A stretch of DNA of 40,835 nt, taken from the NCBI RefSeq assembly GCF_018780585.1, contig NZ_JADMJL010000026.1, forward strand, positions 1-40,835, in the 5' to 3' direction. Under the pieces are notes generated by a model. That model searched no databases and was not told the origin of the DNA. It saw only the letters and a program-made list of their open reading frames with translations. The position numbers were made by a program, and so were the translations under genes. Numbering within the stretch: the first letter of the stretch is position 1; every line of letters begins with the position of its first letter. This document shows, in pieces, positions 22,284 to 30,659 of the stretch. Source of the DNA: Methyloversatilis discipulorum. GTDB lineage: Bacteria > Pseudomonadota > Gammaproteobacteria > Burkholderiales > Rhodocyclaceae.

Positions 22284-22595
22284 CACATCGAGACGACCGC
22301 GCAACGTCAGCCGGTCGCGAAGTGCGGGGAGATCAGGGTGACGCAGTGCAGCTGCCGTTTTGACGCCGATCACGGACACGCCTCTCCGGACCCCTTCCGC
22401 ACTTCTTCCTTCAGCACTCCCGCCAGTCGCAACGCTGCGGCCGGTGCAGATTCTTCGCCACACCCGTTTCCGAGTATCAGGGTCGCATCCGGCAACGACG
22501 CCAGGTCGCGCGCCGACTCACAACCGGACAGCTATGGGCAGGCCGTCCGCTTTTTCAGATCGCCCGAAACCGTGGATCAACAGAGGGAGAACACC
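22284..22595 (+). other. Long untranslated leader of torF
   Basis: About 310 nt lie between the predicted start and the GTG of the porin gene. No convincing ORF with a ribosome binding site is seen, although the porin frame stays open through it. Near its end, CGGAC (22525-22529) and GTCCG (22545-22549) can pair just before a TTTTT run (22551-22555), a weak attenuator-like element. Confidence 0.4.
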
Positions 22596-23390
22596 GTGCT
22601 TAACCACCGACGTCACCGCAACACCCTGAGCGCCGTATTGCTGGGCCTGCTCGCCGTACCGTTCTGTGCCCAGGCAGAAGAAGCCGCCGCACCGGCCTAC
22701 ACGATCAGCGCCAACGTGGGCCTGTTCTCGCAGTACATCTTCCGCGGCATCAGCTATACGCAGGAGAATCCGGCGGTGCAGGGCGGTTTCGACCTCGCGC
22801 ACTCGAGCGGCGCCTACCTGGGCATCTGGGGTACCAATGTGAGTGATCTGGCACTGTCGAACGCGACCGGCGAGATCGACGTGTACGGTGGCTTCGCCAA
22901 GACCATCGACGACTGGACCTTCGACGTCGGCTTCCTGCAGTTCATTTTCCCGGGCGGCAAGTACGATCCGTCGGGCGAGAGCCTGAACACGCTGGAACTG
23001 AACGCGGCGGTGACGTGGAAGTTCATCCAGCTGAAGTACTCGTACGCGGTGACCGATTACTTCGGTTTCAGCAAGAAGGCCTTCGGCGCGGATTCGGACG
23101 GTTCGGACTACATCGAGCTGAACGCGAACTACGAGTTCATGCCGTCGTGGATCGCCAACGTTCACGTCGGTCACCAGAAGGTGAAGAACTACGACGATTA
23201 CGACTTCACGGACTGGAAGGTGGGCGTGACGAAGAACTTCGAGGGCGGCTGGCAGGCGGCAGTGGCGTATGTCGACACCAATGCCGACAAGAACTTCTAC
23301 ACGATCTGCGATACGGCCGGCGGGGTGTCTACGCGCTGCAAGGACACCGGCGACAGCAAGTGGCTGATCTACGTGAAGCGCACGTTCTGA
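22596..23390 (+). CDS. TorF-family putative outer-membrane porin
   Basis: 264 aa from a GTG preceded by AGAGGGAG. The frame is open much farther upstream, but the signal peptide (TLSAVLLGLLAVPFCAQA, cleavage near residue 27) fixes this start. The mature protein begins AYTISANVGLFSQYIFRGISYTQ, typical of the TorF (TIGR02001) family, consists of alternating amphipathic strands and ends in an outer-membrane-type aromatic residue (VKRTF). It is probably a beta-barrel for uptake of small solutes; methylated amines or TMAO are likely from context. It is divergent from tmm under the same operator type and followed by the permease. Confidence 0.85.
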   Translation: MLNHRRHRNTLSAVLLGLLAVPFCAQAEEAAAPAYTISANVGLFSQYIFRGISYTQENPAVQGGFDLAHSSGAYLGIWGTNVSDLALSNATGEIDVYGGFAKTIDDWTFDVGFLQFIFPGGKYDPSGESLNTLELNAAVTWKFIQLKYSYAVTDYFGFSKKAFGADSDGSDYIELNANYEFMPSWIANVHVGHQKVKNYDDYDFTDWKVGVTKNFEGGWQAAVAYVDTNADKNFYTICDTAGGVSTRCKDTGDSKWLIYVKRTF

Positions 23391-23441: not shown

Positions 23442-25142
23442 ATGAGCAGCAATGCGGATGTGATCGGAGCGGCGCCGGTACGGTCGGCCAGCCGCGCCGA
23501 AAGTGCTTCACTGCACCGGAAGATCGACTGGACCGGTGCGTTCTGGGTGGCCAGCGGCGTGCCGGCGCTGGTGCTGTTTTCCATCGGCGCCATCGCCGCC
23601 ACCGTCGGCAAGCCGTCGTGGATGGTGTGGGCACTGTCGATCGGCTTCGGCTTCATACAGGCCTTCACTTATGCCGAAATCGCCGGCCTGTTCCCGCACA
23701 AGTCGGGTGGCGCTTCGGTGTATGGCGCGGTCGCCTGGGTGCGTTACAGCAAGATCATCGCGCCGGTGTCGGTGTGGTGTAACTGGTTCGCCTGGTCGCC
23801 GGTGCTCGCCATCGGTTCCGGTCTGGCGGCCGGCTACATCCTCGGTGCGCTGTTCCCGGCCGATGCGGCGATCAACACCTGGCAGCTGACGCTGGTCGAC
23901 CTGAGCTTCATCAAGTCCGGGCTCGAACTGCGCATCAACGCGACCTTCCTGGTCGGTGTCGTGCTGCTGCTGGCGGTGTTCGGCATCCAGCACGGCGGCA
24001 TCCTGCGTTCGGCGCGCACGACCATGGTGCTCGGCGTCACCGCACTGATTCCGCTGATGCTGATCGCGCTGGTGCCGCTGCTGTCCGGCGACATGCCGTC
24101 GACCCACTTCTCGCCGATGGTGCCCATCGCCTACGAGAACGGGCTGGTGGTCGATGGCTCCTGGAACATGGCCGGCGTCACGCTGATGGCAGGCGGCCTG
24201 TTCATCGCCGCGTGGTCGACCTACGGCTTCGAGACCGCTGTCTGCTACACCCGCGAGTTCAAGGATCCGAAGAAGGACACCTTCAAGGCCATCTTCTACT
24301 CGGGTCTGCTGTGCATCGTGGTGTTCACGCTGGTGCCGCTCGCCTTCCAGGGCCATCTCGGCCTGGGTGAGGTGATGACGCCGCCGGTGGTCGAGGCGGA
24401 CGGCACGGTGAGCACGCCGGCGGTCTACAGCGGCATGCTGGCGCCGGAGGTCTACAGCGGCATGGGCGTGGCCAACGTGATGTCGCACATGGTCGGCGGC
24501 GGCGAAGTGGTGGCCAATGTTCTGGTGGTCATGCTGGTGCTGGCGGTGCTGCTGTCCATCATGACTTCGATGGCCGGTTCGTCGCGCACGCTGTACCAGG
24601 CTTCGGTTGATGGCTGGCTGCCGCGCTACCTGTCGCACGTCAATGAACACGGCGCACCGACGCGCGCGATGTGGACGGATCTGGGCTTCAACCTGATCCT
24701 GCTGCTGATGTCGGACTACGTGTTCGTGCTGGCCTGCTCCAACGTCGGCTACATCATGTTCAACTTCCTGAACCTGAATTCCGGCTGGATCCACCGCATC
24801 GACCGTCCGGACTGGGAGCGTCCGTTCAAGGCGCCGAAGATCATCCTCGGCATCGGTGTCGTGCTGGGCTTCGTCAACCTCGCGCTGATGGGCCTCGGCG
24901 CCGACATCTACGGCGCCGGTACGCTGACCGCCGGTCTGGTGTTCGCCTCGCTGATCATCCCGGTCTTCCTGTACCGCCACTACGTGCAGGACAAGGGCAA
25001 GTTCCCTGATGCGATGCTGGAGGACATGCACCTGAACGACCAGCTGGCGGAAGGCGGCAAGCGTGCCGGCATCCTGCCCTATGTCACGCTGGCTGCTGGC
25101 GTCGCGGTGGTGATCATCGCGCACAACATGGCCGTGTATTGA
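23442..25142 (+). CDS. APC-superfamily amino acid/amine permease
   Basis: 566 aa with about 12 transmembrane segments. The first helices show the APC pattern (TGAFWVASGVPALVLFSIG, FTYAEIAGLFPHKSGGASVYG), and a conserved segment reads WSTYGFETAVCYTREFKDPKK. It is an inner-membrane, cation-coupled or facilitated carrier. Given co-transcription with torF and divergence from tmm-tdm, the substrate is probably trimethylamine, TMAO or another methylated amine, but the sequence does not prove this. It is longer than typical amino-acid permeases (about 450-500 aa) because of an insert near residues 305-345 (VMTPPVVEADGTVSTPAVYSG) and a hydrophilic segment near the C-terminus. Confidence 0.88.
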   Translation: MSSNADVIGAAPVRSASRAESASLHRKIDWTGAFWVASGVPALVLFSIGAIAATVGKPSWMVWALSIGFGFIQAFTYAEIAGLFPHKSGGASVYGAVAWVRYSKIIAPVSVWCNWFAWSPVLAIGSGLAAGYILGALFPADAAINTWQLTLVDLSFIKSGLELRINATFLVGVVLLLAVFGIQHGGILRSARTTMVLGVTALIPLMLIALVPLLSGDMPSTHFSPMVPIAYENGLVVDGSWNMAGVTLMAGGLFIAAWSTYGFETAVCYTREFKDPKKDTFKAIFYSGLLCIVVFTLVPLAFQGHLGLGEVMTPPVVEADGTVSTPAVYSGMLAPEVYSGMGVANVMSHMVGGGEVVANVLVVMLVLAVLLSIMTSMAGSSRTLYQASVDGWLPRYLSHVNEHGAPTRAMWTDLGFNLILLLMSDYVFVLACSNVGYIMFNFLNLNSGWIHRIDRPDWERPFKAPKIILGIGVVLGFVNLALMGLGADIYGAGTLTAGLVFASLIIPVFLYRHYVQDKGKFPDAMLEDMHLNDQLAEGGKRAGILPYVTLAAGVAVVIIAHNMAVY

Positions 25143-25197
25143 TGCAGCTGGGCCGTCGCGCGCTCGCGTGACGGCCGCGGAACAATGTCCGCACTTG

Positions 25198-25244
25198 CCG
25201 GCATCGGCCACTCCTGCGGGGGTTGTCGATGCCGGTTTTCTTTT
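25198..25244 (+). terminator. Intrinsic terminator of permease
   Basis: CCGGCATCG (25198-25206) and CGATGCCGG (25227-25235) form a 9-bp stem whose interior pairs further, followed by TTTTCTTTT. It closes the torF-permease transcript and separates it from the downstream promoter at 25277-25335. Confidence 0.9.
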
Positions 25245-25276
25245 GGCGTCGCGGTCCCAGGCTGTCCGCGCATGCC

Positions 25277-25335
25277 TACCCAGAATGGCTTACTCCCTCT
25301 TGAGAATTGCCCGGCCGGTGGCGCTTGCTGATAAT
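25277..25335 (+). promoter_or_regulatory. TMA-regulon promoter/operator 4 (small RNA)
   Basis: Palindrome TACCCAG-AA-TGGCTTA at 25277-25292 (the weakest of the four), then an intact CTCTTGAGAATTG, -35 TTGCCC (25307-25312), 17 bp and -10 GATAAT (25330-25335, five of six matches). No protein gene lies downstream on this strand; the next gene is convergent. Confidence 0.78.
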
Positions 25336-25341
25336 CGCTCT

Positions 25342-25512
25342 GCCTTGCCTGAATCGGCGAATGACGTACTCAGGCGGAGCAAGCGGGAATGCGGGGTGCA
25401 TTCCCGCCGGATGCGCAAGTCGCGGTGCGAGCGCCGCGACAACCAACTCTCCTCACCTTCACCGGCACGTGCAGCCAGCTCCTCCTGGCGAGCACCTGCC
25501 GGTTTCTTTTTT
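25342..25512 (+). ncRNA. Candidate small RNA of the TMA regulon
   Basis: About 170 nt from the start predicted by promoter 4 to a terminator T-run. Stem 1: 25341-25352 with 25370-25381 (12 positions, one mismatch and two G-U). Stem 2: 25383-25391 with 25399-25407 (9 bp, perfect). Stem 3: 25419-25425 with 25434-25440 (7 bp, perfect). An unpaired CU-rich linker (25441-25460, containing CTCTCCTCACCTT) follows, then the terminator hairpin. The linker and the terminator loop (CTCCTC) are complementary to Shine-Dalgarno sequences, as in anti-SD-type regulatory RNAs. It does not resemble a known family that I can name. A 70-codon open frame crosses it but has no ribosome site and reads through the terminator. 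Confidence 0.72.
25461..25512 (+). terminator. Rho-independent terminator of the small RNA
   Basis: ACCGGCA (25461-25467) pairs with TGCCGGT (25497-25503); inner helices GTGC/GCAC and GCCAG/CTGGC continue to a CTCCTC loop. TTTCTTTTTT follows. It terminates only on the plus strand. Confidence 0.92.
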
Positions 25513-25547
25513 CAGGTCTGCGTTAAGGGCTGCGCTCAGGTCTGCGC

Positions 25548-27662
25548 TCAGGTTTGCGACGTGGCCGGGCTGAAACAGCTCAGGCGCAGCAGCTCTTCGG
25601 GCCGCACCGGTCGGCTGAACAGATAGCCCTGCAGGCGGTGGCAGCCGAGTTCGGTCAGCTGCGCCAGCTGCCCCAGCGTTTCCACGCCCTCGGCGACGAC
25701 TTCCAGCCCCATGCTGTCGGCCAGCGAGGTGATGGCACGCACGATGGTGACGGCGTCGGAACTGCTGCGCAGCTGGCTCACGAAGCTGCGATCGATCTTC
25801 AGCGTGCGCACCGCAAAGCGCATCAGATAGGCGAGCGACGAGTAGCCGGTGCCGAAATCGTCGATGGCGAGGCTGATGCCCATGGTGTCGAGCGCGCCGA
25901 GAATGTCGGTGGTGCGCGGGATGTCCTCCATCAGCGTGCTTTCGGTGATCTCCAGCTCCAGCATGCGCGGATCGACACCGGCTTCCTGCAGCGCGCTGGT
26001 GATGTCGCTCACCAGGTCGTCGTCGCGCAGCTGCCGGCCCGACAGGTTGAAGGCGAGGTGCAACTGCGGCTGTGTCGCCTGCAGCATGCGCAGGTCGCGC
26101 AGTGCTTCGCGCAGCGACCAGCGGCTGACCGGCACGATGAGTCCGGTTTCTTCCAGCAGCGGAATGAAGCGGTCGGGTGGCACCACGCCTTCGGTCGGGC
26201 TGTTCCAGCGCAGCAGCGCCTCGACCGTCGCCACGCGGCCGGTGCGGGTGTCGATGATGGGCTGATAGACGAGGAAGAACTCGCGCCGTTCGAGCGCGCC
26301 GTGCAGCGCGATCTCCGCCGACAGCTCGGTGTGCGCGTGGGCATCCATGCTCTGGTCGTAGAAGCGCAGCGTGTTGCGGCCCGCAGCTTTGGCGCGGTAC
26401 ATCGACAGGTCGGCCCGGCTGAGCAATTCGTCGACCGAGTGTCCGTTCTCCGGAAACAGCGCGATGCCGACGCTGGCGCTGACGAAGAACTCGCGCCCCT
26501 GCACGCGCACGCCTTCGGCAAGCGCCGCCAGTATCTTTTCCGCGATCTCGGTGACGGCGGTGCGGTCACCGGTCTCTTCCAGCAGCACGGTGAACTCGTC
26601 GCCACCCAGTCGCGCCACCGTGTCCGAGGCGCGCACGCAACCGCGCAATCGTGCCGCCACTTCGGTCAGCAGTGCGTCGCCGACGCTGTGACCCAAGGTG
26701 TCGTTGATCACCTTGAAGCGGTCGAGGTCGATGAACAGCACGGCCAGCGGGCACTCGGTACGCATGGCGCGGCGCATGGCCTGGCGCAGCCGGTCGGTGA
26801 ACAGCCGGCGGTTGGGCAGGTCGGTCAGGGCGTCCATGCCAGCCAGATACTCCAGCTGGTCCTGCGCGCGGATGCGTTCGCTGACGTCGCGCGAGGTGGC
26901 AACGTAGTGACTGATCCGTTGCTGCGCGTCGCGGATCGGGCTGATCGTCTTCTCTTCGTGATAGAGCTCGCCGTTCTTGCGCCGGTTGGTGAACACCATG
27001 CGGAACACCTCGCCGCTGCGCAGTGCACGCCACAGCCGGGCATAGACGTCGGGGCCATGCAGGCCCGATTTCAGCAGGCCGGGCGAGCGCCCCAGCACTT
27101 CTTCGGCGGAGTAGCCGGTACTGCGCTCGAAAGCTGGATTGACGTACTCGATCAGGCCGCCGGCACAGGTGATCAGCACCGCATCGCCGGCCTGGTGCGC
27201 CGCGCGCGCCAGCAGGCGAAGCTCGCGCTGCGCGGCGTCCTCAGGCGTGCCGTGGCTCACGCGCAGCAGCCAGTCGCCGGCCGCGTCGCCGGGCAGGCGG
27301 GCGCACTCGACACAGACGGCTTGTCCGTTGTCGCACAGATGCCAGACGTGGCGGCTCACGTCGCCGCCGCTGTCGGCGCAGAAAGATGGCCAGTGCGAGC
27401 AACCGTCGTCGTCGAGTTCGCGGAACAGGGTGTGTACCGCCCGGCCCTGGACAGGGGGCAGTGTGTCGGGCCAGCCGATCTGGTGCAGGACGCGGCCGTC
27501 ACCGGCAAGCCGCAGCAGTGCGACCGGCGCCGATTGCGGCGCGTCGCCGACCGCCGCGGCGAAGGCGTCCGGGAAGGAAACGTGCTGCGTGCATGGCATA
27601 TCCATGGCGCTGCAGCTGAACAGTGCGGAAACGACGGCCATCGTGCATCCCCCGGTCTTCAT
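25548..27662 (-). CDS. PAS-GGDEF-EAL cyclic-di-GMP protein
   Basis: 704 aa, without obvious membrane segments. A variable N-terminus (1-150) precedes a PAS domain with PAC segment (about 155-275: LIEYVNPAFERSTGYSAEEVLG, EKTISPIRDAQQRISHYVATSRDVSE). The diguanylate cyclase domain has an intact GGDEF in ARLGGDEFTVLLEE, and the phosphodiesterase domain has EALLRW, NLSGRQL, ELEITES and IDDFGTGYSSLAYL. Both active sites look complete, so it may make or degrade c-di-GMP depending on the PAS signal. Starts at MAVV or MDMPC are also possible. It lies 162 bp after the ANTAR regulator in the same direction and is convergent with the small RNA. Confidence 0.93.
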   Translation of the reverse strand: MKTGGCTMAVVSALFSCSAMDMPCTQHVSFPDAFAAAVGDAPQSAPVALLRLAGDGRVLHQIGWPDTLPPVQGRAVHTLFRELDDDGCSHWPSFCADSGGDVSRHVWHLCDNGQAVCVECARLPGDAAGDWLLRVSHGTPEDAAQRELRLLARAAHQAGDAVLITCAGGLIEYVNPAFERSTGYSAEEVLGRSPGLLKSGLHGPDVYARLWRALRSGEVFRMVFTNRRKNGELYHEEKTISPIRDAQQRISHYVATSRDVSERIRAQDQLEYLAGMDALTDLPNRRLFTDRLRQAMRRAMRTECPLAVLFIDLDRFKVINDTLGHSVGDALLTEVAARLRGCVRASDTVARLGGDEFTVLLEETGDRTAVTEIAEKILAALAEGVRVQGREFFVSASVGIALFPENGHSVDELLSRADLSMYRAKAAGRNTLRFYDQSMDAHAHTELSAEIALHGALERREFFLVYQPIIDTRTGRVATVEALLRWNSPTEGVVPPDRFIPLLEETGLIVPVSRWSLREALRDLRMLQATQPQLHLAFNLSGRQLRDDDLVSDITSALQEAGVDPRMLELEITESTLMEDIPRTTDILGALDTMGISLAIDDFGTGYSSLAYLMRFAVRTLKIDRSFVSQLRSSSDAVTIVRAITSLADSMGLEVVAEGVETLGQLAQLTELGCHRLQGYLFSRPVRPEELLRLSCFSPATSQT

Positions 27663-27824: not shown

Positions 27825-28439
27825 CTACTGGCCGGCGCCGGCCCTCGGCGTGCCGCCGCCGAGCGGCTGCATCATGTCCTTGGCCACGTCCTCGATGCGC
27901 CGGCGCTGAGCGCGGGCGGTCTTGCGCAGCATTTCGAAGGCGGGCTGGCGATCGATGCGCAGGCGCTCCATCAGGATGCCGACGGCGATGCTGATCTCGC
28001 GCCGCTCGTCGAGGGCGCGCTGCAGGTGCTGGCCGGTACTGCGCAGCTGGCGCAGCTCTTCCGAGCGCGCCAGTGCGGTGCGCAGCGTGGGCAGCAGCTG
28101 TTCGACGTCGAGCGGTTTGACCAGATAGGCCAGCGCACCGCGCTCGATGGCGCTGCGCACCCGACCCGGGTCGCCAAAGGCGGTCAGGAAGATCAGCGGC
28201 AGGCTGTGGTGCTCGCGCAGCACCGCCGCGAACTCGAGCCCGGTCATGCCCGGCAGCTTCTCGTCGAGGATGACCAGATCGATGCGCGTCGTCCCGAGCA
28301 GCGCCAGCGCCTCTTCGGCCGAGCGCGCGACATGGACGCCGTAGCCGTGAGCGCGCAGCCCGTCGCCCAGCGTGGCTGCGTTCAGCCGGTCGTCCTCAAC
28401 CAGCAGCAGTTGCGGGCTGGTGTCGTCGTATGTGTGCAT
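27825..28439 (-). CDS. ANTAR-domain response regulator
   Basis: 204 aa from the ATG of MHTYDDTSP (a TTG 18 bases upstream is possible). The receiver domain has the acidic pair VEDD, the phospho-acceptor Asp in LVILDEKLPGMTG, Thr in FLTAFG and Lys in YLVKPLD. The C-terminal ANTAR domain (about 140-195: RREISIAVGILMERLRIDRQ, AFEMLRKTARAQ) is an RNA-binding antiterminator. On phosphorylation such proteins dimerise and prevent termination in target leaders (AmiR, NasT, EutV). It overlaps the 3' end of the kinase gene by 44 bases. Its targets are unknown. Confidence 0.92.
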   Translation of the reverse strand: MHTYDDTSPQLLLVEDDRLNAATLGDGLRAHGYGVHVARSAEEALALLGTTRIDLVILDEKLPGMTGLEFAAVLREHHSLPLIFLTAFGDPGRVRSAIERGALAYLVKPLDVEQLLPTLRTALARSEELRQLRSTGQHLQRALDERREISIAVGILMERLRIDRQPAFEMLRKTARAQRRRIEDVAKDMMQPLGGGTPRAGAGQ

Positions 28440-29931
28440 GGTCGCTGGTCTCGTCAAACATAATGATGGGTGGCCGCAGTGCGAGGCGCGTCAGTACGCG
28501 TCCCGGCTGCTGGCGAAAATCCAGTGTGGCGTGCTCGGTCGGCAGCAGCGCGGCCAGCAGTTCGAGGCCCTGGCCGAGGCCGCGGCGCGCGGCGAAATCG
28601 AAGCCGGGCGGCAGCTCGCCACCGTTGCCGATGACGATGAGTGCGCCGTCGTCGTCCGTTGACAGCTCGATGTCCACGCGGGCATCGCGGTCGATCTGCC
28701 GGTGCTTGACCGCATTCATCAGCAGTTCGTTGAGCACGATGGCCAGCGGCACGGCTTCGCTGTCGGCCAGACGCAGTTCGAAGGCGCTGAGATCGCGCAC
28801 GTCGAGCTTCACCCGGGCGTCGAACAGGCCTTCGATGCTGCCGGCAATCATGCGCAGGAATTCACCGAGCTGGACCGGTGCGCCGGCTTGACTGCCCTGC
28901 AGTTCGTGGATGACAGCGATCGATCGAACCTGACTGATGGCGCCGGTCAGCGCCTGGGCGAGCGCCGGGTGCTGCCCGGCGCAGCGGCGCAGCAGGCCGA
29001 CCACGCCCTGCAGGCTGTTCTTGATGCGGTGGTGCGCCTCACGCACCAGCGTTTCGCGCTGCCGTTCGGCCTGCGCCAGCCGGTGCGCCTCGGCTTCCTT
29101 GCGCGCAGTGATGTCCTCGGCGACACCGGCCACGCGTGCATGGCCGTCCTGCGCCTGCCACGGAAAGGCGCGGCAGTGCAGCCAGCGCAGACCGCCATTG
29201 CGATCGGCGACGCGGACCTCGACTTGCGCTGCCTCGCCTTGCGCCTGAGCAGCGAGAAAGGCTTCGAAGCGCGATCGGTCGGGCGGTGCCACCGCCTTTG
29301 CCCAGCCATTCAGATCGCCGGGCTGCTCGCCGTCCGGCAGTGTACTGATGTCCGAAAAGGCCGGGCTGGCGTAGTAAAGCGCACGCGTGTGCGGATCGCT
29401 GACCCAGAAGATTTCGCGGATGTGCTCGGCCAGCAGATAGAACCGCTCCTGCGCTGCACGCAGTGCGGCTTCGGCCTTCTTGCGTTCGCGGATGTCGCGC
29501 ACGACCGCGATGACCGCGGGGCCACCGGCGAACTCGATGCGCGAGCCGACGACGTCGACCGCGACCGTTTCACCGTCGCGGGTGAGTGCAATGCCATCGA
29601 GGTAACGCGTGCTGCGCCTGATCGCCAGTTCGTCGAAACAGGCCTGGATGCGCGTCTCTTCGGACGTCGGGTAGAGCATGGATACGTGCTTGCCGGCGAC
29701 TTCGGCGGGGCGGTAGCCCAGCAGTTCGCTCGCTGCGCCGTTCATGTGCATGATGACGCCGCGCGGCGTCATCAGAAGCAGCGCGTCGGCGATGCCCTCG
29801 AACAGTTCAGGGAAGGCGGGGATGCCTATGGCATCGGCTTCGCGCTCACTCTTCCCCAGTCGCGTGCCTGCGACCTCTCCGCCCGGAAGGCCCGGTGCGG
29901 GTACTGCTGGGAATGCAAATTCGCGAACCAT
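28396..29931 (-). CDS. PAS-sensor histidine kinase (HisKA_2 type)
   Basis: 511 aa and soluble. Two PAS domains are present (about 40-170 and 175-300), the second ending in a PAC segment (VRVADRNGGLRWLHCRAFPW). The dimerisation/phosphoacceptor helix EAHHRIKNSLQGVVGLLRR is the HisKA_2 (HWE-related) type. The ATPase domain has NELLMNAVKH and a G-box in RRGLGQGLELLAALL. It is the likely partner of the overlapping ANTAR regulator, the same pairing as EutW-EutV. The start was chosen at MVREFAF; the frame upstream is open but unlike protein. The signal is unknown. Confidence 0.9.
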   Translation of the reverse strand: MVREFAFPAVPAPGLPGGEVAGTRLGKSEREADAIGIPAFPELFEGIADALLLMTPRGVIMHMNGAASELLGYRPAEVAGKHVSMLYPTSEETRIQACFDELAIRRSTRYLDGIALTRDGETVAVDVVGSRIEFAGGPAVIAVVRDIRERKKAEAALRAAQERFYLLAEHIREIFWVSDPHTRALYYASPAFSDISTLPDGEQPGDLNGWAKAVAPPDRSRFEAFLAAQAQGEAAQVEVRVADRNGGLRWLHCRAFPWQAQDGHARVAGVAEDITARKEAEAHRLAQAERQRETLVREAHHRIKNSLQGVVGLLRRCAGQHPALAQALTGAISQVRSIAVIHELQGSQAGAPVQLGEFLRMIAGSIEGLFDARVKLDVRDLSAFELRLADSEAVPLAIVLNELLMNAVKHRQIDRDARVDIELSTDDDGALIVIGNGGELPPGFDFAARRGLGQGLELLAALLPTEHATLDFRQQPGRVLTRLALRPPIIMFDETSDHAHIRRHQPATAAG

Positions 29932-30272
29932 CGTGGTGCGCCCCCCTGGCTGCGCCTGTAGTGCCGTACTCGAAAGCTTCGCGCTGGGGCCGGGCGCTGA
30001 GCGTACGCAAATCTGCTGCCACCTGATGCGTGGCAACTCTCTCGATTCAAGTTTAGCGCAAGCACGGCGGCGGATTCGGGCCACGAAATGCTTTGCTGCG
30101 GCCATTTGTAACGATCGCATTACGGAGGGGAGGGGAAATCGATCTGCCTCGGCTGGCGATGGCGGCGACAGCGACCGGAAGCGATCGCCGGAGCACGCTG
30201 ATGGCGGTGTGCGTGCCCCCAAGACTGAAAGCAGTCGGGGCCGCCCGCGAAAAGAGCCAGAGCGTCGCCTGG
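29932..30272. other. Intergenic region upstream of the kinase gene
   Basis: 340 bases between the kinase start and the end of dgkA. No gene is supported. It must hold the kinase promoter; a TAAACT box on the minus strand near 30050 is the only candidate I see. A hairpin CCCC-AA-GACTG/CAGTC-GGGG lies at 30217-30240 without a T-run. Confidence 0.4.
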
Positions 30273-30659
30273 TCAGGCGCTCCAGAATCGGGCGCTCAGC
30301 ACCAGGGCCCACACCAGGAGCAGGTTGAGCAGAGTAACCATGACGGCGGCCGAGCCGATGTCCTTGGCGCGCTTGGCCAGCGCGTGGTTCTCCAGCGAAA
30401 TGCGGTCGACGGTGGCTTCGACGGCGGAATTGAGCAATTCGACGATCAGCACCAACAGCACCGAGAACACCATCAGCGCGCGTTCGACACCGCTGTTGCC
30501 GAGCCACAGCGCGAGCGGCAGCAGCAGTACGGCGGCGATCACCTCCTGGCGGAAGGCGTCTTCGTGGCGGAAGGCCGCACCCAGACCTTCGGCCGAGTAA
30601 CGGGTGGCATTGAGCAAGCGGCGCAGGCCGGTCTTGCCCTTGAACGGACTTTCTTGCAT
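30273..30659 (-). CDS. dgkA: Diacylglycerol kinase
   Basis: 128 aa with three transmembrane helices. RHEDAFRQEVIAAVLLLPLAL and the signature VELLNSAVEATVDRISLENHALAKRAKDIGSAAV (conserved Glu and Asn of the active site) identify prokaryotic DgkA. It phosphorylates diacylglycerol at the inner membrane to recycle it as phosphatidate. It is the last gene of the minus-strand housekeeping run, separated from tpx by a strong hairpin. Confidence 0.96.
   Translation of the reverse strand: MQESPFKGKTGLRRLLNATRYSAEGLGAAFRHEDAFRQEVIAAVLLLPLALWLGNSGVERALMVFSVLLVLIVELLNSAVEATVDRISLENHALAKRAKDIGSAAVMVTLLNLLLVWALVLSARFWSA

Follow-up and report, generated by a model that had tools for sequence, protein, structure and literature searches.

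The stretch of DNA analysed here (the window, 40,835 nt) is the whole of contig C73 of an assembly of the genus Methyloversatilis (G000) that comprises 4.56 Mb in 81 contigs. The cluster on it encodes a trimethylamine monooxygenase and a trimethylamine N-oxide (TMAO) demethylase, both above their curated cut-offs, and the trimethylamine (TMA) label that an earlier note had given to the cluster is therefore correct. The small RNA (sRNA) locus studied here, 25277-25512, is flanked by a TMAO permease gene (23442-25142) and a convergent GGDEF-EAL gene (25548-27662). It had been described as an operator, a promoter, hairpins, a linker and a terminator in this order and without a plausible gene, and all of these elements were found. 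The features of the locus and its upstream neighbours are listed below.

22596-23390, plus strand: putative porin of the TorF family (TIGR02001)
23442-25142, plus strand: trimethylamine N-oxide permease (NF053774, above cut-off)
25199-25245, plus strand: terminator belonging to the TMAO permease gene upstream, separate from the RNA (sequence; fold of the G010 counterpart)
25277-25309, plus strand: operator TACCCAGAATGGCTTACTCCCTCTTGAGAATTG, of the form TACCC-N9-TAMYYCCTYNTGAGAATTG (pattern search)
25307-25335, plus strand: promoter-like TTGCCC-17-GATAAT, the -35 element overlapping the operator (sigma-70-like site search)
25342-25380, plus strand: predicted 5' end of the sRNA and imperfect hairpin 1 (fold; start placed from the -10 position)
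25383-25407, plus strand: hairpin 2, 10 bp, perfect, loop GGGGU (fold)
25419-25440, plus strand: hairpin 3, 9 bp including one G-U (fold)
25445-25460, plus strand: CU-rich linker with the anti-Shine-Dalgarno (anti-SD) sequence CTCTCCTCACC at 25447-25457 (sequence, alignment of copies)
25461-25503, plus strand: terminator hairpin with covarying stem (fold, covariation)
25479-25484, plus strand: anti-SD hexaloop CTCCTC, inside GCTCCTCCTG (fold, invariance in the copies)
25503-25512, plus strand: T-tract of the intrinsic terminator (sequence)

The torF leader, from the operator promoter to the assumed start codon, measures about 300 nt (22290-22595). On the minus strand, downstream of the TMA permease, 27825-30507 encodes a REC-ANTAR response regulator (27825-28457) and a PAS/HisKA_2 kinase, and this pair is syntenic in G000, G010, G001, G004, G002 and G005.

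The locus had been said to share its operator with other promoters of the cluster, and the pattern search bore this out. At up to 3 mismatches it returned five sites in G000 (17601-, 22083-, 22218+, 25277+ and one on contig C80) and none with the reversed pattern; the pattern was composed from some of these very sites, so that the 0 mismatches at 25277-25309 are partly by construction. Four of the sites lie in the TMA cluster, where the element at 25277-25309 fits the module that precedes the other promoters, and the fifth precedes a universal stress protein (Usp) gene. The latter site (G000:C80:122849-122881), whose gene was named from the Pfam Usp domain of the G010 orthologue, is also present before the Usp gene in G010 and G001. 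Among the 13 genomes of the genus, the operator was found in 11 and the reversed control pattern in none. The promoter-like TTGCCC-17-GATAAT is the sole sigma-70-like site between 23000 and 28000 (0.4 expected).

The left half of the operator (e.g. TACCCCT-TA-AGAGGTA) resembles a 7-2-7 site of NarL-type regulators. An orthologue of a NarL-type response regulator is encoded in 10/13 genus genomes (E<=1e-60), namely in 10 of the 11 operator-bearing ones, and this protein is therefore likely to be the regulator of the amine regulon. G007 and G009 have neither operator nor orthologue, and G000 carries operators but gave no match to the regulator at E<=1e-60. Behind the permease of G011 and G012 come a plain terminator and the NarL-type regulator, in this order; in these two genomes and in G006, G003 and G008 the regulator ends about 3 kb from the operators. 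The G011 locus (L125:1692-4000) holds the NarL-type response regulator and a HisKA_3 kinase adjoining the permease.

Folding of the predicted RNA (25342-25512) gave -80.8 kcal/mol with a z score of -4.25, and 0 of 200 shuffled sequences were equally stable. Of the three stem-loops reported earlier all are present, and of the two called perfect only hairpin 2 is so, hairpin 1 being imperfect and hairpin 3 containing a G-U pair; the CU linker (25447-25457) and the terminator loop CTCCTC, both anti-SD, are as described. No plus-strand ORF of at least 20 aa has both ends inside 25342-25512, and a small-protein reading is therefore unlikely; a 45-aa ATG ORF (25389-25526) extends beyond the terminator. 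Rfam 15 gave no match in the window at gathering score, and relaxing the limit to E<=5 brought up no credible family in 25140-25560. Judging from its sequence, we conclude that 25277-25512 is a real, predicted sRNA gene.

The RNA might instead serve as a protein-binding decoy, e.g. as a target of an ANTAR protein or of CsrA, the REC-ANTAR regulator at 27825-28457 (minus strand) binding its hairpins. The position of an ANTAR regulator and histidine kinase 3' of the RNA or its conserved module in G000, G010, G001, G004 and G005, and 3' of the permease in G002, speaks for such a role. RNAs bound by ANTAR proteins have two hairpins with A1/G4 hexaloops, whereas the terminator hexaloop here is CUCCUC and the predicted fold holds no second hexaloop hairpin; the hairpin 2 loop is GGGGU, and the other loops on the sense strand also lack the GGA of CsrA targets. 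Both the ANTAR and the CsrA readings were discarded on loop sequence, and a decoy of this kind appears very improbable.

Operator and RNA together are 97% identical to the window in G010 and 93% in G001, and the three 5' hairpins are common to G000, G010 and G001 only. Hairpin 3 of G001 differs by one double compensatory change (a single event) that keeps every pair. G004 has the operator, the promoter and the same linker and terminator behind a different, likewise highly structured, 5' part, and the linker plus terminator (the 3' module) is therefore regarded as the conserved core of the predicted RNA. A model of this module found 10 copies in 5 of the 13 Methyloversatilis genomes (one in G000, two each in G010, G001 and G004, and three in G005). 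A pattern search over the genus gave no match in the other 8 genomes and returned the same five, plus one G010 match with unfitting gap and context. The expectation that stems and CU linker would be conserved next to torF and the permease thus held for the 3' module in 5/13 genomes and failed for the 5' hairpins beyond G000, G010 and G001. Among relatives that share the cluster, the terminator stem covaries where the module occurs, and G002, G011 and G012 carry the cluster and operators without the RNA, their permeases being followed by plain terminators.

Among the 8 distinct module copies, 90% of the cells of the structure are paired, and 6 pairs (13 cells) are changed on both sides. The covariation score was 0.340 vs 0.186 +- 0.029 in shuffled alignments (0/500), and slid structures did not exceed 0.150; the alignment was itself fitted to the model, a bias toward the structure. 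The number of further pair types, 12 vs 12.2 in shuffles, showed no excess. The loop context GCTCCTCCTG and CCTCA of the linker are invariant in all 10 copies, in each of which the hexaloop has a mean probability of being unpaired of at least 0.99. Most modules folded in isolation leave the linker open (p 0.69-1.0), whereas it is partly paired in the full-length folds, most so in G004; bases 2-4 of its CUCCUC have p(unpaired) of 0.24-0.28 in full-length G000 and 0.45-0.56 in G001 and G010. An unpaired anti-SD motif on divergent stems is therefore evident for the hexaloop and less clear for the linker. A minus-strand reading was ruled out, since all 10 copies have the T-tract 3' of the hairpin on the strand of the module. 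The permease terminator region of the window (25183-25247) matches the module model weakly (19.1 bits, E 0.014), and this terminator, whose loop is not anti-SD, may be a decayed module copy.

An operator and promoter stand upstream of four of the ten copies, which are separate units behind another terminator; such operator-driven RNAs occur in 4/13 genomes (those of the window, G010, G001 and G004) vs operators in 11/13. The remaining six are 3'UTR terminators that begin at most about 60 nt behind a stop codon, and they occupy amine-permease or N-methylglutamate-pathway loci, an addition to what the earlier note had described. G005 has two TMAO-permease homologues in tandem (92% and 79% identical), each followed by a module, and the 3'UTR of the orthologue of the window's TMAO permease is such a module. 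In G004, G001, G010 and G005 a module lies 3' of a small membrane protein gene, between a second gene of the amino-acid-permease type and a second torF (torF2). This second locus includes a glutamate-synthase-domain gene (G005 copy) and ORFs that on reading look gmaS- and mgsABC-like, and was therefore assigned to the N-methylglutamate pathway of methylamine use. In these four genomes some 14 kb separate the NarL-type regulator from the second copy of the module. In G000 a second amine permease was not found (best match 30% identity); as the permease and the regulator are both missing, the whole N-methylglutamate block of this genome, including module p2, may be absent or unassembled.

The rarity of a CUCCUC terminator loop was assessed in the complete genome G010. 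A genome-wide search for exact CTCCTC followed 8-26 bases on by TTTTT gave 10 matches at 7 distinct places vs 9 for the reversed control; the raw count is therefore ordinary, and the hairpins alone set the matches apart. Of the 7 places, three form a terminator whose loop holds CUCCUC, namely the stand-alone RNA, the module in the 3'UTR and the torF2 terminator, each of them in one of the two amine loci; the other four have no such fold. In G010 and G001 the torF2 terminators (loop UCUCCUC) have a common stem that is unlike that of the module, the torF2 terminator of G004 (loop ACUCCUC) has another stem, also unlike the module, and that of G005 has no such loop. An evenly spaced sample of 400 kb of G010 gave 72 terminator-like hairpins (some possibly within genes), none of them with a CUCC, UCCUC or CCUCC loop, the nearest being CCTCTC. 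This census recovers p1, p2 and torF2 of G010; two cruder ones (44 candidates, and 37 in 400 kb with 0 such loops) missed known modules. With 3/3 such terminators in amine loci and 0/72 in the 400-kb sample, the association of the loop with these loci is real in G010, in small numbers.

A simpler account of these data is that the module is only a terminator that spread with duplications of torF/permease operons, its loop kept by descent without function in trans and the stand-alone unit being a decayed remnant. That 6/10 copies are 3'UTR terminators and that the copies follow the torF/permease duplications are both in line with this account. The stems, however, have accumulated compensated changes with no change in the loop or in the linker's CCTCA, CUCCUC loops recur on the non-module stems of torF2 terminators in G010, G001 and G004, a dedicated promoter precedes 4 copies, and such loops were absent from the 72 sampled hairpins. 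We judge a terminator without further function to be unlikely.

The family was then sought beyond the genus. Model R1 matched 64 of 249 genomes of the family at E<=1, the strong matches (E<=3e-11) being solely in the five Methyloversatilis genomes; next came G063 (E 2e-4) and G091 (E 0.004), and the remainder were weaker. The G063 matches are probably one place, because the same 125 bp stands at two contig ends. Model R2 matched 7 of 399 genomes of the order at E<=0.02, i.e. G000 and six others. The best of these others, G434 (L134, E 1.5e-6), ends a gatB-like gene with a terminator that lacks the CUCCUC loop and was rejected, as were L136, L137 and L138, which look coding by eye. A scan of 84,980 species genomes for the exact pattern found 22 stretches, of which two are in M. 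universalis EHg5 and one is copy G005a; the other 19 stand under other taxon names, with about 10 chance matches expected (a rough estimate). Two elements in other genomes of the order were met along the way. At L139 ~1380-1550 (G473) two tandem intergenic terminators are preceded by the CU-rich stretches CTCCCCCTTT and CTCCTCCCTTT, and from their sequence the pair looks like unrelated sibling anti-SD sRNAs. At L135 ~1501-1564 (G395) an intergenic terminator with a 14-nt CU-rich loop, preceded by a CTCAC stretch, is a possible independent anti-SD sRNA.

The target prediction proposed for the linker yielded no candidate in the window's genome, where the 13-nt complement of the linker (up to 1 mismatch) occurs nowhere but in the RNA itself. 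The same was found in G004, and G010 and G001 have one further place each. Complements of the loop with one mismatch were at the level of the reversed control among the matches listed. Linker and loop were also scored against the starts of tmm, torF, the permease, EAL, ANTAR, kinase and Usp genes (those of tmm, ANTAR and kinase being uncertain, and the set being exclusive of the gene behind operator 17601). None passed the 5% point of 2000 random windows, the nearest being Usp for the linker (-11.5 vs -12.5) and, for the loop, the permease (-10.7 vs -10.8).

A candidate target was met by chance, through the terminator pattern: the second permease suboperon has a leader gene (117 aa, a membrane protein by eye) with a strong SD, AAAGGAGGAGAGCAAG, whose AAGGAGGAGAG is kept in 4/4 genomes examined. 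Ranked by pairing energy against 314 sampled G010 gene starts, this SD stands at 0/314 with the torF2 loop (that of G010 and G001), 5/314 with the module loop and 15/314 with the linker in G010, G001 and G004, and at 8/314, 5/314 and 15/314, respectively, in G005. Other SDs of the second locus rank lower, except that of torF3 of G004 with the linker (1/314). GAGGAG occurs in 13/314 of the sampled starts, a frequency that leaves target specificity without explanation. As a post hoc hypothesis from sequence comparison, this leader gene is the best target candidate; G000 does not seem to carry the block that holds it.

The same SD bears on the possibility that the module is a cis-acting 3'UTR element that sets mRNA stability with no separate sRNA, its loop either binding a protein or pairing at the ribosome-binding site of the mRNA that carries it or of a neighbour. 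The leader SD AAAGGAGGAGAG of the permease suboperon in the N-methylglutamate locus does match loops 3' of the same permease, but the modules of the window and of three relatives form units of their own, each having a promoter and lying behind another terminator, and we regard action purely in cis as quite improbable.

As a single explanation of the locus we therefore return to a stand-alone anti-SD sRNA gene whose 3' module pairs with target SDs, a reading that we consider reasonably probable. A gene of about 171 nt would be transcribed from near 25342 once the operator is bound, probably by the NarL-type response regulator of the methylated-amine regulon, and transcription would stop at the hairpin with its U-tract. 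The CU linker and the CUCCUC hexaloop would then pair with GAGGAG/AGGAGG SDs of target mRNAs and block ribosome binding, while the 5' hairpins would stabilise the RNA; masking of SD sequences is the most likely mode of action that we infer for it in trans. Cleavage could free the same kind of RNA from the 3'UTR modules of the amine-permease and N-methylglutamate loci. Since the same module ends 3'UTRs in these loci, the gene that stands alone here is probably such a module that gained, or retained, a regulon promoter of its own. That the RNA represses 'competing or costly mRNAs', as had been suggested, is conjecture. A more specific proposal, which we put forward tentatively as possible and rather less than probable, is that anti-SD terminators constitute a dedicated amine-uptake code, in which 3' ends, released or stand-alone under the NarL-type regulon, cross-repress the permease suboperon with the leader AAAGGAGGAGAG. 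If this were true, cross-repression would let RNA set a hierarchy, or an overflow control, between the uptake of trimethylamine and that of methylamine; selection would act on the loop while the stems turn over. How the uptake of methylated amines is controlled has consequences for the turnover of carbon and nitrogen. A compact, genus-limited family that is both a stand-alone regulon gene and a 3'UTR terminator would offer a clean system for the passage from 3'UTR sRNA to independent gene, and would suit a test of trans regulation by a terminator loop alone.

Among the matches listed in a search mostly of journals outside subscription, no description of a bacterial trimethylamine sRNA, or of an sRNA in Methyloversatilis, was recognised. 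CcsR1-4 of Rhodobacter sphaeroides carry anti-SD loops, and for the sibling sRNAs of Neisseria we know of no amine-regulon operator. The expression paper on M. universalis FAM5 reports amino-acid permeases responsive to methylamine, and a term search of its text gave no match for small RNA or non-coding (PMC5023235). Likewise, the 2026 paper on TMA regulation describes protein regulators, and the available part of it does not mention sRNA or small RNA (PMC13390433). The comparisons below refer to the accessible portions of the papers cited. CcsR1-4, a comparable case, are multicopy 3'UTR-derived sRNAs that modulate C1 metabolism, and differ in originating from the ccaF1 3'UTR with RNase E (PMC8625941). 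The Neisseria siblings, likened here by description, are a betaproteobacterial pair regulating metabolism and amino-acid uptake (PMC5362039, PMC13104608). The anti-SD device itself has been documented experimentally for alpha-r14/NfeR1 and LhrC (PMC10746234, PMC4132741). LhrC1-5 of Listeria, also likened by description, are multicopy, carry CU-rich motifs in a loop, a single-stranded stretch and the terminator loop, are under LisRK two-component control and block the SD of lapB; unlike the present RNA they have a UCCC motif and belong to a low-GC Gram-positive, and 3'UTR copies are not mentioned in the portion consulted (PMC4132741). Another close system is alpha-r14/NfeR1 of Sinorhizobium, which has unpaired ultraconserved anti-SD motifs on diverging stems, a place in nitrogen metabolism and its own regulated promoter, and whose target candidates are mostly ABC transport systems (PMC10746234). 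It is alphaproteobacterial, the same portion does not mention 3'UTR copies, and it has three CCUCCUCCC motifs, whereas one CUCCUC hexaloop and a CUCUCCUCA linker are present here (PMC10746234); CCUCCUCCC in three hairpins was not found in the window RNA, whose other loops differ. The functional kind, an anti-SD sRNA, is thus already known, and the present RNA most likely represents a new, genus-limited family of trans-acting members of this kind, related to 3'UTR terminators of amine-transport operons.
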